Shown here piece after piece: positions 1,748 through 52,282 of a stretch of 64,000 nucleotides of DNA (the first letter of the stretch is position 1; each line of letters opens with the position of its first letter). The DNA is taken from the NCBI GenBank assembly GCA_947626395.1, contig CANQRU010000002.1:1-64000 (forward strand), written 5' to 3'. Made by a program: the position numbers and the translations under genes. This DNA comes from an uncultured Lachnospiraceae bacterium. GTDB lineage: Bacteria; Bacillota; Clostridia; Lachnospirales; Lachnospiraceae. The notes beneath the pieces were generated by a model. That model ran no database searches. It was given only the letters and a program-made list of their open reading frames with translations, and was not told the origin of the DNA.

Positions 1748-3262
1748 TCAGCAGAACGCCCAGTGTATAGTAACTTCCCCATTGAGCACAACAACCTTTT
1801 CTATAAGCGAATGGACCAGGGCAAAGAGCGCATCCGGGTCCCCGCTTTCAATTACGGCCGCCAGGGAGCCCAGGGAGGCAACTGCGGCGGCCTTCGACAT
1901 TTTCCCCGCTTCTTCCTTTTCGACTTCTTCCAGGCAGGCCTGCGCGGCCGCCCGCGTTTCTTTCAGATCGGCCAGGCGGCCCTGTATTTCTTCCAGTTCG
2001 ACGATCCCGGACTGGTACAGGGTAAGAAGCCGGTTTATTTGTTTTTCCGTTTCCGCCAGGCGTTCCTGGACCGCGCCCAGATCGGGCCCGGAGCTTTCCC
2101 GGCCTTCCGCGATTAAGGCATCCAGGGCGGCCGGATCAACGGACAGCTTTTTTATTTCTTCCAGCACCAGGGCGTCCAGTTCGGAGACGTCAAAATGGTT
2201 TTTCCGGTTCGAGCAGTTATCCGACCGGATCATCCTGGCGGAGCAGCGGCTTACAGAATAACAAATATATTTTTTACTTGCGGGCCTTTTCCCGTCCTTC
2301 CAGCCCCAGCCGCGGATCGACATACGCGCCCCGCAGTCCCCGCAGAAAAGCAGGCCGGAGAGCAGGCCGTCCGATCCGGTATACGCCCGCTTATACGCCT
2401 TCTGGTTCCCGGCAAGGCGATCATTGACCTGGCGCCACAGTTCCGGGGAAACGAGGGCTTCATGCTTTCCTGGGTATTCCTTATCGCCCATACGGACGCG
2501 CCCGGCGTAAACCGGGTTACGTAGTATTTTACTGCAGCGATCCGCAGCAGACCGGCGGTCCCGATCCGCGTAAATACCGTAAGTTTCCGCGACATACGCC
2601 GCCACTTCGCCCAGGCTTCGCCCTGTAGCATAAAGCCGGTACATATCCCGGACAACTTGACCCTTGACCGGATCGACGGCCAGGTCCCGGCCGCCTTCCG
2701 GCCGAGCTTCCGCGGTATACCCGATAGGGATATGCCGCCCGGTATAGTAGTTTCCTTCCTTAAGCCCGGCCTGCTTCCCCATCATCATCCGGGCCGTTAT
2801 ATTTTCGCGTTCCATTTGAGCGAAGGCGGCCAGGATGCCGACGATGCAGCGGCCGAAGGGTGTAGACGTATCGAAACTTTCCATAATTGAAACAAAATCG
2901 CAGCCGTTCGCCAGGAACACGTCTTCGAGCAAAACAAGCGTATCCTTCTGGGACCTTGAGAGCCGGTCGAGCTTCCATACGACAACCTTTTTACAGTTCC
3001 CGCGCCGGACGTCCCTTATTAAGTTTTTGACACCCGGCCGGTCCAGCGTTGCGCCGGAGTAACCAGCATCCACATGAACGGCATTTATAGCGATCCCGTA
3101 AGCAGCGCACCAGGCGCGGCCCCGTTCTTCCTGTTCCCCGACGCTATAACCTTCTTCCGCCTGTTCCGTAGTAGATACCCGGACATACAGATCGGCCGCG
3201 TTCGCCAGAGCTTCCACGGACAGAGGAGCGACGACCGGAGCCGCCGCGGACTTCTTAACCAT
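1748..3262 (-). CDS. int: Large serine integrase
   Basis: This 504-residue protein is a large serine recombinase that cuts and rejoins attP and attB. The resolvase domain carries catalytic Ser30 in YVRVSTTEQ and the conserved VVWKLDRLSRS helix. The recombinase domain (about 165-305) is followed by a zinc ribbon with Cys307, Cys310, Cys334 and Cys350, then a long coiled coil (about 395-450) of the kind that controls direction. The start chosen is ATG 3262 because GGAGG lies 8 nt upstream; a longer open frame reaching 3367 has no such site. It ends 46 bp from the attL crossover, as expected for the enzyme that made the junctions. Excision normally needs a separate directionality factor, which I cannot identify among the small genes here. 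Confidence 0.95.
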   Translation of the reverse strand: MVKKSAAAPVVAPLSVEALANAADLYVRVSTTEQAEEGYSVGEQEERGRAWCAAYGIAINAVHVDAGYSGATLDRPGVKNLIRDVRRGNCKKVVVWKLDRLSRSQKDTLVLLEDVFLANGCDFVSIMESFDTSTPFGRCIVGILAAFAQMERENITARMMMGKQAGLKEGNYYTGRHIPIGYTAEARPEGGRDLAVDPVKGQVVRDMYRLYATGRSLGEVAAYVAETYGIYADRDRRSAADRCSKILRNPVYAGRVRMGDKEYPGKHEALVSPELWRQVNDRLAGNQKAYKRAYTGSDGLLSGLLFCGDCGARMSIRGWGWKDGKRPASKKYICYSVSRCSARMIRSDNCSNRKNHFDVSELDALVLEEIKKLSVDPAALDALIAEGRESSGPDLGAVQERLAETEKQINRLLTLYQSGIVELEEIQGRLADLKETRAAAQACLEEVEKEEAGKMSKAAAVASLGSLAAVIESGDPDALFALVHSLIEKVVVLNGEVTIHWAFC

Positions 3263-3307
3263 ACACACACCTCCAAAAGGGCGCAAAAATAGCCCTTGCG
3301 TAAATAC

Positions 3308-3336
3308 TTGTGTTTTTCGCCAGGGCGGTGTATAAT
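3308..3336 (+). promoter_or_regulatory. Sigma-70 type promoter for a short rightward transcript
   Basis: TTGTGT (3308-3313), a 17-nt spacer and a perfect TATAAT (3331-3336) point rightward, against the flanking leftward genes. No protein gene follows on this strand before a terminator at 3376-3420. Confidence 0.55.
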
Positions 3337-3343
3337 ATAAGAG

Positions 3344-3420
3344 CTCGGAATGTTTTATACATGGCACCTGGCCAGGGCCGCCGCTATTGCGCCAACAGTA
3401 GCGGCGGCCTTTCCTTTATT
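3344..3420 (+). ncRNA. Candidate small RNA, left prophage end
   Basis: A transcript from the TATAAT at 3331 would start near 3344 and end at a strong terminator, GGCCGCCGCTA (3376-3386) pairing with TAGCGGCGGCC (3399-3409) followed by TTTCCTTTATT. The product would be about 75 nt. It lies between integrase and a small membrane gene, both leftward, and would overlap the 3' end of the membrane gene mRNA. Function is unknown; no RNA family is recognised. Confidence 0.45.
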
Positions 3421-42627: not shown

Positions 42628-43230
42628 ATGCCACAACCTTTTAACAACGCGGTTATGACAAACAAAGGGGCGCAGCTTCTTACACGGGCGCAGGCCGGGG
42701 AGATTAAGATCGAGTTTACCCGGATGGTCACCGGCAACGGGACCTATTCAGCGCAGGAAAAGACGCTTGCATCCCTGCAGGCCAGGACCGCCCTGAAGGT
42801 CCTTAAGAATAGTTACAAACTTTCGCGGGTCTTCGTCTTTTCGGAGCACAGCGTAAAGGTAACGGCGCTGATCACGAACCAGGACCCGGTCACGCGGGAA
42901 ACTTTGGTAAGCGCCGGCTACTACATTAACGAGGTAGGCCTCTACGCGAAGCCGGCCGGCGCCGGGGACGGGCAGGAGGTGCTTTACAGCATCGCCGTCA
43001 CGGCCGGAGACAACGGCGACTTTATGCCGCCTTACAACGGGTATAACCCGGCACAGATTACCCAGGACTTTTTTGTAACGGTTGACAATTCTGCCACCGT
43101 TACGATCAACACAGCAGGCGCGGCGCTTCTGGTTGAGGACGCGAACACCATGACCGACGACGCGACACACAAAAAATATAAGATCGGGATTGAGAACGGC
43201 CTGGTCTACGTACAGGAGGTAACGGAGTAA
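42628..43230 (+). CDS. Tail fibre/collar protein, N-terminal type (DUF3751-like)
   Basis: The 200-residue protein has the pattern FNNAVMTNKGAQLLTRAQAG and the YYINEVGLYA motif of phage tail-collar fibre N-termini. It is short and lacks a receptor-binding region, so it likely connects the fibre to the baseplate. It is followed with a 1-nt overlap by the gene that carries the variable region. AGGAGG precedes the ATG. Confidence 0.8.
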   Translation: MPQPFNNAVMTNKGAQLLTRAQAGEIKIEFTRMVTGNGTYSAQEKTLASLQARTALKVLKNSYKLSRVFVFSEHSVKVTALITNQDPVTRETLVSAGYYINEVGLYAKPAGAGDGQEVLYSIAVTAGDNGDFMPPYNGYNPAQITQDFFVTVDNSATVTINTAGAALLVEDANTMTDDATHKKYKIGIENGLVYVQEVTE

Positions 43231-44516
43231 TGGCAGGAGAAAAGATTTTCGTAGCAGACAAGCCGACGCTTGACAAGATTTATAGTATTTTGGCGCCGGA
43301 CCAGGTGTGGGGCTTCATTGAGCACAACGCCACCCTGGGAGCTTCCGCCCGGATCGAGTACACGGGCGTAAACAAGAATTATAAGCCGCTTTCCCTTGAC
43401 AAGAGCAGCGGCGTAATGAGCCTTAACGACTGGGCAGGCCACCCGATCCTGGAGGCAAACAAGCCGTACATGGTACGCAACGACGGATCGCCGGACTACC
43501 GGCTGAAGGCGGACGACTACACGAAGAAAGAGGACGGCACCGCCTCCGACGTTGCAAACAGCCAGTACAAGGGCGGCGCGTTTTCCTGGCTTAAGAAGAT
43601 TTATAAGCAGGAGTACATGATCGGCGACGACCGCTATGTAAATTTCAGCATGGGCAAGCGGGACGGCTTCGAGCCGGTCGGCTTCATTGACGACAGCAAT
43701 AACGAGCTTGAGGGCGTCTGGCTTCCGATGTTCTACGGCGCGATCTTAGACCCGGAGGGCACCCCGACGATGGCGAGCCTTTCCGGTCTGCAGCCGACTT
43801 ACAGCAAAGACACGACCGCGCAGAAAACAGCTATTGACAATTTCGGAGCGCGGGCGCGGTTCCTGGGCGGGCCGATTGTAGAAACAATTATTGACCTGCT
43901 TATCCTTTTCGCAAAGACCACCGACCTGCAGGCCGCTTACGGGAACGGCAATATGAGCGGCTACGACGTAAGCCTGGAGCCCACATACGGAGTCTTAAAG
44001 AACGCCGTAGTAAAGGGCGGCCAGTTTTACGGGACCGGCGACGGAAAGAGCCTTAATAAGATTTTCCACAGCGTAGTCCTGGGCAGTTGGCAGCAGTGGA
44101 TGCGCGACCCTTACGAGGTAGTAGTAAACGGCCGCGTTAAGGTAAGTACAAACTATAAGTACGACGTAACCGGCGCTTCCTATCTTGATACCGGCATCCA
44201 GGTCCCGAACAATTTGGAATGGGACGGCAGCCACAACGCGCTGGCCTATCCTTCCTACTACCGGACGGTGCCGGGGTACGGAGCTATTCCAGCGCTTGAG
44301 ATGAAGGGCGGGAGCACCGCCACCGGCGGGTGCGACGGCCTCTGGAGAAAAGACCCGACGCAGGTATTTACGGCGGTCGCCCTTCGGTTCGGTGATTGCT
44401 ACGATGGCAGCGGTGGCGGCCTACGCGCCCGGTATTGGAACGCTGCGGCCGCGGCTGCGGCCTGGAGCATCGGCGCGGCCATTCTTCTATTACCACCTGT
44501 CGGCGTAGCCGCATAG
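43230..44516 (+). CDS. DGR-diversified tail fibre / receptor-binding protein
   Basis: The 428-residue protein ends in a formylglycine-enzyme/C-type-lectin-like domain (about 215-417) with VALRFGDCYDGSGGGLRARY near its C-terminus, the fold used by DGR targets such as Mtd. The last third contains the variable region 44372-44480 (residues about 382-417). The template would encode GNCNNGSNGGPRARNWNN at the matching place, so nearly all differences are at template AAY codons. It should bind the host receptor. After GCC (44480) an extra A (44481) shifts the frame, so the end reads GAAILLLPPVGVAA. The TR-like reading would be GAAFFYYHLSA, close to the template's GAAFFYPTYGR. Confidence 0.9.
   Translation: MAGEKIFVADKPTLDKIYSILAPDQVWGFIEHNATLGASARIEYTGVNKNYKPLSLDKSSGVMSLNDWAGHPILEANKPYMVRNDGSPDYRLKADDYTKKEDGTASDVANSQYKGGAFSWLKKIYKQEYMIGDDRYVNFSMGKRDGFEPVGFIDDSNNELEGVWLPMFYGAILDPEGTPTMASLSGLQPTYSKDTTAQKTAIDNFGARARFLGGPIVETIIDLLILFAKTTDLQAAYGNGNMSGYDVSLEPTYGVLKNAVVKGGQFYGTGDGKSLNKIFHSVVLGSWQQWMRDPYEVVVNGRVKVSTNYKYDVTGASYLDTGIQVPNNLEWDGSHNALAYPSYYRTVPGYGAIPALEMKGGSTATGGCDGLWRKDPTQVFTAVALRFGDCYDGSGGGLRARYWNAAAAAAAWSIGAAILLLPPVGVAA
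44372..44480 (+). repeat. DGR variable region (VR)
   Basis: It matches the template repeat 44626-44734 over 109 bp without gaps. I count 16 mismatches, 14 of them at template adenines (A to G, C or T); the other two are C to T. The 3' end CATCGGCGCGGCC is GC-rich and identical, as expected for an initiation-of-mutagenic-homing segment. It lies at the C-terminal end of the fibre gene. Confidence 0.93.
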
Positions 44517-44520
44517 GGGG

Positions 44521-44548
44521 TCCGGGGGTGCGAAGCAATTCCCCCGGA
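44521..44548. promoter_or_regulatory. Hairpin 3' of VR, candidate DGR homing element
   Basis: TCCGGGGG (44521-44528) pairs with CCCCCGGA (44541-44548) with a 12-nt loop that contains TGC-GAA-GCA. DGRs such as that of phage BPP-1 need a hairpin or cruciform just after the VR for efficient homing. It could also end the fibre mRNA, although no U-run follows. Confidence 0.6.
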
Positions 44549-44625
44549 AAAGTAGAGGCCTTCGTAATTTTGACTTGAGCGCGAAAAGTAAAAATATAAC
44601 AGGGGATAAAACCGGCGTCAGCCTG

Positions 44626-44734
44626 GGCGGTCGCCCTTCGGTTCGGTAATTGCAACAATGGCAGCAATGGCGGCCCACGCGCCCGGAATTGGAACAACGC
44701 GGCCACGAATGCGAACTGGAACATCGGCGCGGCC
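44626..44734 (+). repeat. DGR template repeat (TR)
   Basis: This 109-bp copy lies 145 bp downstream of the VR and before the reverse transcriptase gene. It is rich in AAC and AAT codons at the positions that differ in VR (14 changed adenines). It should be transcribed and copied with adenine mutagenesis into the VR. After the shared segment it continues TTTTTCTATCC where VR has ATTCTTCTATT, the difference that normally protects TR from homing. Confidence 0.93.
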
Positions 44735-44930
44735 TTTTTCTATCCTACTTACGGAAGATAGACTAAAAGCCGGTTTTATTCCTACACCCCTGACCGTTGA
44801 AATACGGTTTAACCGCCATTATTGGAAGGGTAAGTGGAAATTAACTTGATACAGGGCGGGCAGTAAAGCGGTCGCACCTGCTGCCCGTAGAGGATAGAAG
44901 AAAAAATATTCTTATAGGAGTACAGAGCTT
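44735..44930 (+). ncRNA. Structured TR-RNA spacer upstream of the RT
   Basis: No gene lies between TR and the reverse transcriptase. CGGGCAG and CTGCCCG near 44860-44890 can pair, and GACCGTTGAAATACGGTTT holds a smaller stem. DGR template RNAs extend into such a spacer, which the reverse transcriptase needs. GGAG (44912-44916 region) is the ribosome site of the RT gene. Confidence 0.5.
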
Positions 44931-46112
44931 ATGCGAAGGAAAGAGTTGTGGCAGCAGCGGCAAGCCATAGACACTGCCACGCCGGAAACCAACGGTAAGC
45001 AGTACAAATATTTGTATCGCCGTATGCTTGACGAGGACGTTATAAGGAAGGCATACAAGAAACTGCGCAAGGGCAAGACGAAGCGGGCCGAGATAAAAGC
45101 TATTGACGCCGATTTAGATAACGAAGTAGCCGCCATGCGGCGGATGATTGAGAACACGAAGCCGCCAGGCGTTCCAGTTGAGCACCCGGAGCTGGCATAC
45201 AGACCCAGGAAGCGAACGCCGAAGATCATAACCGAAAAGGGCAAGCGCCGGAAGATATATATGCCGGAGATACACGAGCAGTGGCTGCACCATATAATCG
45301 TCCTTATTTTGGAGCCGATTATAACCGCCACGGCTTACCCGTTTTCCTGCGGCAGCTTTCCGAAGCGCGGCGCCCATTACGGAAAGAAACAGGTTGAGCG
45401 CTGGATCAGAAGCGGCGAGGGTATAAGGTACTTCGCGAAGCTGGATATACGGCACTTCTACGACAACATAAGCCACCGCGTACTGATGCGGGAGCTTCGC
45501 GTCCGGATAAAGGACGACTGGTTTTTATATATTATTCAACTTTGCCTTGCAGGCTTTAAGAAGGGCGTACCGTTGGGCTTCTACATTTCCCAGTGGCTGG
45601 CGAATTATTTACTTGAGCCTTTGGACAAGTTTATAACAGAGACCCTGGGCCTTAAGCGAACGATGCGTTACATGGACGATATAAGCATCTTCGGAGCGGC
45701 AAAGAAGGGATTGCACCAGGCCGTCCAGGCGATCCGGATATTTTTAGGGCGCCGGTTCCGGTTGAGGTTAAAGCGGAATTTTCAAGTTTGCAAATTTGAC
45801 TTTACGACAAAGAAAGGGAAGCGCATAGGGCGCCCGCTTGATTATATGGGCTTCCTATTCTTCCGGGAAAAGACCTTGATCCGGAAAAGCATTATGCTGG
45901 CAGCGACGCGGCTGGCCAGCCAGTTACACAGGGCGAAGGAAGCCGGTCGCGGCTACTTTTCGACACACATAAAGGCCATGTTGAGCTATATGGGCTGGTT
46001 TGATTGTAGCGACACTTACGGCTGCTACGAGAAGCATATAAAACCGTTCGTAAAGATTGGCAGGCTTAAAAAGATCGTTTCAAAATTAGACAGGAGGGAA
46101 AAAAAGAAATGA
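44931..46112 (+). CDS. DGR reverse transcriptase
   Basis: The 393-residue enzyme has the RT catalytic box MRYMDDISIF (about 245-254) and the DGR-specific domain 4 motif LGFYISQ (about 214-220, pattern LGxxxSQ; retroviral and retron types have QG here). It also has LDIRHFYDNISHRVL near 165-180 and the group II-like HAPYPFSCGSF-like segment TAYPFSCGSFPKRGAHYGKK before it. It copies the template RNA with errors at adenines and delivers cDNA to the VR. No accessory Avd-like gene is seen between target and RT. Its stop overlaps the next ATG by 4 nt. Confidence 0.95.
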   Translation: MRRKELWQQRQAIDTATPETNGKQYKYLYRRMLDEDVIRKAYKKLRKGKTKRAEIKAIDADLDNEVAAMRRMIENTKPPGVPVEHPELAYRPRKRTPKIITEKGKRRKIYMPEIHEQWLHHIIVLILEPIITATAYPFSCGSFPKRGAHYGKKQVERWIRSGEGIRYFAKLDIRHFYDNISHRVLMRELRVRIKDDWFLYIIQLCLAGFKKGVPLGFYISQWLANYLLEPLDKFITETLGLKRTMRYMDDISIFGAAKKGLHQAVQAIRIFLGRRFRLRLKRNFQVCKFDFTTKKGKRIGRPLDYMGFLFFREKTLIRKSIMLAATRLASQLHRAKEAGRGYFSTHIKAMLSYMGWFDCSDTYGCYEKHIKPFVKIGRLKKIVSKLDRREKKK

Positions 46113-46375
46113 AACAGTGGCAGACAGAGCGATGCGCGGAGGAACCCCAGGCCTTGCAGGTTGTGGGGCCTGACCTTTTGATCCAGCGCCGGAACATTCA
46201 CGAAGTAACGCACCAGCCCACGACGGAGGGCGAGGAGGCTTACACGGACTACGAGTGCGAGAGCCGCGAGATCACGGTCAGCGAGTACGAGACACTTAAG
46301 AGCATTGAGGAGATCGACACCAGCAAGGCGCTGGACGACTACACGATGCAGCTTATAGAGGAAGGGGTGTTATAA
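46109..46375 (+). CDS. Small acidic protein after RT, unknown
   Basis: An 88-residue acidic protein coupled to the RT gene (4-nt overlap). It lacks the basic, helical, barrel-forming character of Avd. It resembles small proteins that lie between fibre and XkdX genes in Firmicutes phages, and may be unrelated to the DGR. GGAGG precedes the ATG. Confidence 0.5.
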   Translation: MKQWQTERCAEEPQALQVVGPDLLIQRRNIHEVTHQPTTEGEEAYTDYECESREITVSEYETLKSIEEIDTSKALDDYTMQLIEEGVL

Positions 46376-46379
46376 GGAT

Positions 46380-46550
46380 ATGGCGAGCATTTTAGTAAAC
46401 AGCCTTAAGCGGCTTTACGAGAGCGGCAGGCTGACAAAGGAGCAGATCGCGGAGCGCGTAAAGAAGGGCAGCATCTCCCCGGAGGACTACGCCTACATTA
46501 CCGGCGAGGAGTACCAGGCGGATCTGCAGGAGGAGCGCGGCGATGCTTAA
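46380..46550 (+). CDS. XkdX-like small phage protein
   Basis: The 56-residue protein has a helical start (ASILVNSLKRLYESGRLTKE) followed by the ISPEDYAYITG pattern typical of XkdX family proteins, which lie after tail fibre genes in Bacillus PBSX and related phages. AAGGGG lies upstream of the ATG. Its exact role is unknown. Confidence 0.75.
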   Translation: MASILVNSLKRLYESGRLTKEQIAERVKKGSISPEDYAYITGEEYQADLQEERGDA

Positions 46551-46719
46551 CCCGGTTGAGATCGTAGAGAAGCAGAACGCCATTATACGCATACAGAGCG
46601 ACGTTATAGACGAGCTTTTCCTGCTTCTTATGCAGCACGTAAGCGCCGACGAGGTAGACCGGCTCCCTTGCGTTGAGAGGATCAACGAGGCGGCCAGAAT
46701 CCGCCGGGAAATTGAATAG
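46543..46719 (+). CDS. Small helical phage protein, unknown
   Basis: A 58-residue mostly helical protein (VEIVEKQNAIIRIQSDVIDE) that overlaps the XkdX-like gene by 8 nt and has GGAGGAGCG upstream. Small helical proteins like this follow XkdX in many Firmicutes phages. No function is known. Confidence 0.55.
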   Translation: MLNPVEIVEKQNAIIRIQSDVIDELFLLLMQHVSADEVDRLPCVERINEAARIRREIE

Positions 46720-50308: not shown

Positions 50309-50657
50309 CGGTTTTTATAATATTACAGACTTCCCGGTCGCCCTTCGGTACGGCCCGAAGGATAGAGCCTGCAGAGCTCGGCTACACATCACCTTATAAC
50401 CTTTCTTCCACGCGCCAGGCGCGGAGCCTACGGAGTTTACGAGTTGCGCCGCTTCCCCTTGCGGCTTTAAGACTTTCACATTAAAAGCCAGCGAAACCTG
50501 TTAAACGACATTCAGACCGGGAAATCTGATAATATTTACATGGCACCCGTCCCACAAGCCGGGGAGCTTGCTTTACTTCTTCCCGCCGGGCTTCGGACCG
50601 GCCGTCGGTGGTTTAGTGCCTGGGGCGGCAGCAACGCCGCCCCGCTTCCCTATTCAG
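50309..50657. other. Structured non-coding stretch at right prophage end
   Basis: No convincing gene is seen. Several stems are possible: CCTTCGG/CCGAAGG (50343-50361 area), GCGCC/GGCGC near 50430, GCCGC/GCGGC near 50460-50475, and GGGGCGGC/GCCGCCCC (50622-50629 with 50636-50643). CGGTCGCCCTTCGGT at 50335-50349 is identical to the first 15 bases shared by the VR and TR of the retroelement. A GATAAT box with TACATGGCACC behind it (near 50540) resembles the start of the left small RNA region. The density of stems suggests a functional RNA. Confidence 0.4.
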
Positions 50658-51451: not shown

Positions 51452-51539
51452 TAGGTTTTTTCAAAAAAATAAAAAGTTTTTCTTGCGCCCGGAAACCTTA
51501 TATTATAAGCTATTTCCGAAGCATTACCCGCGGAAATAG

Positions 51540-51580
51540 ATATACAACAAATACCGGCTTACTTCAACGAGCGCAGCGTC
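51540..51580. other. attR: attR: right attachment site of the prophage
   Basis: The phage arm 51540-51565 is followed by AA (51566-51567), the inferred crossover, then host sequence CGAGCGCAGCGTC. The phage arm mirrors the attL arm (1703-1728). Joining host halves gives GGAAACGAGCGC and reopens the reductase frame. Confidence 0.85.
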
Positions 51581-52264
51581 GGCGCGGCTGTCCGGGAGAG
51601 CGGCATCCCCCGCGAGGAAATTTGGGTCACTTCCAAGCTCTGGCCGTCCGAGTACGGCGAGGGAAAAACCATGGCGGGTATCGACAAGATGCTCTCCCGC
51701 CTGAATATCGGCTATATCGACCTGCTCCTTCTGCATCAGCAGGTGGGCGATTATATGGGCGCGTGGCGCGACATGGAGAAGGCCGTCGCACAGGGAAAGG
51801 TGCGCTCCATCGGTCTTTCCAACTTTGAATCCGAGCGGCTGGAGGAAGTCTGCGAAGGGGCGTCCATCAAACCCGCCGCGCTGCAGGTCGAGTGCCATCC
51901 CTACTATCAGCAAAACGACCTGAAAAAACGCCTTGCGCCTTACGGTACAGTGATTGAATCCTGGTATCCCATCGGTCACGGCGACGCGGGGCTGATCAAC
52001 GAACCGGTCTTTACCGAACTTGCGAAGAAATACGGCAAGACCAATGTGCAGATCATTCTCCGCTGGCACATTCAGGCGGGCAACGTGATCTTCCCGAAAT
52101 CCACCAACCCGCAGCATATCCGGGATAACTTTGACATCTTCGATTTTGCGCTGACCGCAGAGGAAATGGAAAAGATCGCAGCTCTTGATTGCGGCAAACG
52201 GTTTTATCATGCCACTTTGGAGGAACAGGAGCGCAGCTTTTCCCTATGGGCCCCGGCAGACTGA
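51566..52264 (+). pseudogene. Aldo/keto reductase 2, 3' part, interrupted by prophage
   Basis: From the attR core the frame runs 232 codons to TGA and encodes NERSVGAAVRESGIPREEIW, the catalytic Lys in VTSKLWPSEYG and the catalytic His in LLLLHQQVGDY, ending with SFSLWAPAD. It lacks its own start and the first 50 residues, which lie at 1551-1700. An internal ATG at 51671 has no good ribosome site. Joined to the left part it would be 282 residues, the length of its intact neighbour at 678. The downstream flavodoxin follows 18 bp later. Confidence 0.93.
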
Positions 52265-52282
52265 CGGGAAGGAGCGCATGAG

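Follow-up and report, generated by a model that had tools for sequence, protein, structure and literature searches.

An Epona-type diversity-generating retroelement in a Clostridia prophage, probably active, with an RT-4 spacer RNA and a covarying RNA helix enclosing TR

The 64,000-nucleotide stretch of DNA from an uncultured Lachnospiraceae bacterium analysed here (the window) carries what is, with a probability of about 0.95, a working and recently active diversity-generating retroelement (DGR) of the Epona type, which belongs to a contractile-tailed temperate phage and operates through an RNA that combines an RT-4 domain with a helix enclosing TR. The element is of a known kind, namely that described in the Faecalibacterium phage FP_Epona (Cornuault et al. 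2018, PMC5883640). What is new lies in the architecture of the RNA, with RT-4 as the spacer RNA together with a covarying helix that encloses TR (Table 1). The prophage location proposed in the initial annotation was borne out by genes for a large serine recombinase, terminase, portal, capsid, contractile-tail proteins, holin and endolysin. The prophage interrupts an aldo/keto reductase gene, the parts of which lie at 1551-1717 and 51537-52265, and junctions near 1715 and 51545 present the mirror-image arms ATATACAACAAATACCGG and CCGGTATTTGTTGTATAT (attL/attR) with a common CCGG, indicating a prophage of about 49.8 kb.

Table 1. Positions of the DGR components and associated prophage features within the window.
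Feature	Position	Strand	Remarks
Large serine recombinase	1748-3367	-	Adjoins attL/attR-type junction
Tail-collar fibre-like protein	42628-43230	+	phrog_7037, 4e-41; directly upstream of target
DGR target gene, 428 aa, tail receptor-binding-type variable protein	43230-44516	+	VR at 3' end; phrog_5302, 2e-78
VR	44372-44480	+	109 bp; encodes residues near target C-terminus
Candidate IMH	44466-44480	+	GC-rich VR 3' end, identical to TR except one mutated adenine
Hairpin 3' of VR, TCCGGGGG/CCCCCGGA	44520-44548	+	8 bp, 12-nt loop; DNA fold z -2.1
5' arm of TR-enclosing RNA helix	44603-44616	+	Overlaps near-invariant AGGGG
TR	44626-44734	+	109 bp; offset 254 from VR
3' arm of TR-enclosing RNA helix	44769-44782	+	Directly 5' of RT-4
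RT-4 RNA (RF03025), structured spacer RNA	44783-44899	+	123.4 bits vs gathering 73.5; full model 1-118
DGR reverse transcriptase (RT), 393 aa	44931-46112	+	RVT_1 5e-15; phrog_1423, 1e-95; LGFYISQ, YMDD

Realignment of VR with TR in the window returned the gap-free 109-bp match of the initial annotation, with its coordinates exact to the base, and reproduced the reported adenine bias, 14 of the 16 mismatches falling at TR adenines (hypergeometric P = 1.2e-9, given 24 A among the 109 TR bases). The preference claimed for AAY codons was likewise recovered, since 13 of these 14 adenine changes are located in them. A search of the whole assembly yielded a single TR and a single VR. A second candidate match, of 19 nt at 50335-50353 (E 0.18), falls within a hairpin and was taken as chance. 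The candidate IMH was assigned by its position at the end of VR, by analogy with BPP-1.

Evidence of activity comes from related loci, of which 20 were drawn from GTDB genomes and 54 from viral contigs. A TR/VR pair was found in 69 rows, in which, with the window excluded, 844 of 885 mismatches are at TR adenines; the pair finder that produced these rows itself required adenine bias, and unfiltered pairs from the first 22 loci (L001-L022) showed the same bias. Over 58 distinct related pairs, VR differs from TR at 727 of 1402 TR adenines (51.9%) as compared with 33 of 4984 other TR bases (0.66%). Additionally, at non-A sites that vary among the related TRs, 4809 of 4922 observations, which are not independent, show VR in agreement with the TR of the same locus. 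The close relative L001, a rabbit MAG contig, encodes an RT that is 99% identical to that of the window, and divergence between the two loci amounts to 20% in VR, 6% in TR, 1% in RT and 0.7% in the stretch between VR and TR; rather than being invariant, VR is the part that changes fastest between two near-identical phages. The VR of L001 differs from that of the window, and all 16 of its 16 mismatches with its own TR are at TR adenines. The window and L001 differ at seven TR sites. At six of these, the corresponding VR position shows the difference again, and at the seventh L001 has an adenine whose counterpart in its VR is changed. The recurrence of TR differences in the VRs is what copying from TR to VR after the split between the window and L001 would predict. 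From these related phages we infer TR-to-VR transfer, and the DGR of the window is probably active. The target stretch at 44064-44371, just upstream of VR, is 8.8% divergent from L001 although the RT genes are only 1% divergent, possibly as a result of recombination within the tail gene.

It is conceivable that the DGR was once active in the lineage and is now off in this prophage, having been domesticated or begun to decay. The two non-adenine mismatches of the window VR, at 44422 and 44444, absent from TR, suggest that some time has passed since the last homing event; both are missing from the VR and the TR of L001, and so are most simply regarded as point changes acquired later by the window VR. 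However, the element is intact in its RT, TR, RNA and target, the VRs are free of in-frame stops, and the near-identical L001 carries a different VR in which every mismatch lies at a TR adenine. A switched-off element is considered unlikely on this evidence, and a recently active DGR is the preferred reading.

A structured RNA is located between TR and RT. The spacer RNA of BPP-1 belongs to a different Rfam family (RF03022, Phage_DGR), and two other gut phage DGRs have an RT-18 (L112) or an RT-17 (L113) RNA just upstream of their RT, indicating that RT-4 occupies the position of the BPP-1 spacer RNA. RT-4 was found also in Epona, L077 and L078, and is the spacer RNA of Epona-type DGRs; the RT-17 and RT-18 cases suggest that several of the RT-n families in Rfam represent spacer RNAs of DGRs. 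The Rfam RT-4 model begins at the end of a second element, a 14-bp helix formed between the two arms listed in Table 1, such that this helix and the TR that it encloses fall outside the model. Among 45 aligned relatives, 94.7% of helix cells are paired and both sides have changed at 11 of the 14 pairs, with a covariation of 0.602 against 0.207 for shuffled alignments (0 of 500 reached the observed value) and no more than 0.133 when the partners were slid. Indeed, RNAalifold recovered most of the same helix unprompted. Rows outside this alignment carry the helix also, namely Epona (p 0.003), L078 (p 0.003), L077 (p 0.033) and L080 (p 0.023). Strong TR-enclosing helices are present in two distant DGRs, those of crAssphage LMMB (L099) and Perkons (L102) (p 0.003), with arms of 23 and 21 nt, respectively, the 5' arms beginning with (A)AGG and the 3' arms finishing with CCT(T). 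Weaker helices were observed in MT835666, cr52_1, Versailles, Arawn and ACA1, with p values of 0.013-0.047 that are uncorrected for several tests. The same search revealed no such helix in cr10_1, cr130_1, cr6_1 or the H. canis phage, and a simple search of BPP-1 gave no significant TR-enclosing helix (p 0.66), the best candidate there being also of the AGG...CCT form. The initial annotation, made from the sequence alone, had included neither the RT-4 RNA nor the TR-enclosing helix, nor the lack of a recognisable Avd.

The intergenic position of the helix, in an operon that is likely to be co-transcribed, would suit a function outside the DGR RNP, for example in mRNA stability or in separating expression of the target from that of RT. 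Such a function is nonetheless improbable, given that the position of the helix is tied to TR (with its arms about 9 nt before and 34 nt after it), that it abuts RT-4, and that some unrelated DGRs have a comparable helix around TR. A helix that forms part of the DGR RNA is thus preferred. The broader proposal, that a covarying helix, typically of the AGG...CCT form, is a general DGR RNA element that joins the template ends and defines where mutagenic cDNA synthesis begins and terminates, in this clade without the help of Avd, is a tentative one with the odds against it. To our knowledge, a TR-enclosing helix has not been described as a general DGR element; work on the BPP-1 RNP (Handa 2025) possibly covers it.

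The ORF starting at 44931 carries the LGxxxSQ-type motif and YMDD, as had been claimed, and its PHROG is the one that contains the BPP-1 bRT. A tree of 38 RTs contains a 100/100 branch that divides all the LGxxxSQ-type rows from the QGxxxSP rows, and the window RT groups with L001 inside the clade containing Epona; its placement, in a tree with some long terminal branches, including that of BPP-1, is with the DGR RTs as opposed to outside them. The best structural match of the AlphaFold model of the window RT (pLDDT 80) is the BPP-1 DGR RT 8ub7 (Z 29.7 over 324 residues), with group II intron RTs scoring lower (Z about 25). These data support the assignment of the protein to the DGR RTs, apart from those of group II introns.

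The target had been annotated as a tail gene, and its product is indeed a member of PHROG 5302, annotated as tail protein, and adjoins the tail-collar fibre-like gene. A PDB sequence search with the target gave nothing relevant. The AF2 model of the target (pLDDT 83, pTM 0.88) matches TaqVP of Thermus aquaticus (5vf4), the closest solved fold, with Z 23.9 over 279 residues at 11% sequence identity, TaqVP being from an organism outside this phage group, and BPP-1 Mtd (1yu3) with Z ~9. The predicted fold is therefore of the C-type-lectin type, with VR at the 3' end of the gene, and the mutated codons are near the target C-terminus, as in TaqVP and Mtd. The identification of the locus as a DGR is consistent with the family, structure and phylogeny of the RT, the fold of the target, the adenine-specific divergence of VR from TR and its recurrence in the 58 related pairs. 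That the similarity of TR and VR reflects an ordinary duplication or repeat beside an RT that has nothing to do with it, whether from a group II intron, a retron or a defence system, a notion to which weak matches of part of the RT to group II intron and DRT models lend some colour, has a negligible chance of being correct in view of the adenine bias in every relative, the gene order that is fixed among relatives, the DGR RT clade, the PHROG shared with BPP-1 bRT and the DGR variable-protein fold.

Avd accompanies many DGRs, albeit not all. No recognisable Avd was found in the cassette with Pfam or PHROGs, the Pfam model being one that does detect BPP-1 Avd, and bAvd searches of the assembly and of 14 control genomes alike returned nothing. 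Small ORFs at 44658-44849, 46109-46375, 46380-46550 and 46543-46719 were considered as Avd candidates and gave no Avd match, one of them being XkdX. The description of the DGR as complete consequently holds for the RT, TR, RNA and target, but is to be qualified by the lack of a recognisable Avd gene. Shortly past the target stop codon, 40 nt after VR, is a hairpin that represents a candidate target-site stem-loop and for which we infer a role in the DGR. Most relatives, although not all, have similar G5/C5 stems of 7-9 bp with loops of 4 or 11-14 nt. The post-VR hairpin of BPP-1 is nearer to VR than is the case here. No + strand promoter site above the consensus threshold was found just before the DGR RNA.

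The lack of a recognisable Avd in the cassette agrees with the reported distribution of the gene, which is present only in Mushu and Lagaffe and not in Epona (Cornuault et al. 2018, PMC5883640). The FP_Epona DGR resembles that of the window in having the order tail-collar fibre, Mtd/FGE-type target, TR and RT, and in having an RT-4 RNA, a TR-enclosing helix and no reported Avd, with RTs that are 67% identical and targets (Mtd-like proteins) that are 62% identical. Conversely, FP_Epona is a different phage of another host lineage, whose head-tail genes align partly with those of the window (~70% identity), and the VR and TR sequences of the window are its own. The BPP-1 DGR shares with the window the family and fold of the RT, the VR at the 3' end of the target, adenine mutagenesis, a structured spacer RNA and a CLec-type target, but differs in the family of its spacer RNA, as noted above, and in having Avd upstream of TR.

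In BPP-1, the folded spacer RNA recruits bRT-Avd, an adenine of the spacer RNA primes cDNA synthesis, which is terminated by an RNA motif located 5' of TR, and homing is assisted by a stem-loop 3' of IMH (PMC12875486). By analogy, the DGR RNA of the window, spanning about 44601-44900, would be arranged such that the 14-bp helix ties the flanks of TR together beside the RT-4 domain, the two jointly holding the template and setting both ends of the cDNA, i.e. where its synthesis starts and stops. RT would bind this RNA and copy TR to cDNA with misinsertion opposite adenines, and the cDNA would then replace VR at the 3' end of the tail protein gene, with the result that about ten codons, mostly AAY, are changed in a binding tip of the C-type-lectin type. 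Changes in VR would be expected to alter the choice of receptor, and the phage can probably change its host range, as judged by comparison with BPP-1.

Gut phages have in DGRs a major means of targeted hypermutation, and the window adds a clear, probably active example in a Clostridia prophage. A genome of the same genus (G003) contains several DGR-like RTs (G003:C6 and G003:C10), and one host may carry several DGR prophages. The link between RT-4 and this DGR clade, in which no Avd is recognised, together with the strongly covarying TR-enclosing helix, provides a testable secondary structure for presentation of the template without Avd, and the 45 related sequences constitute a natural set for the design of helix mutants.
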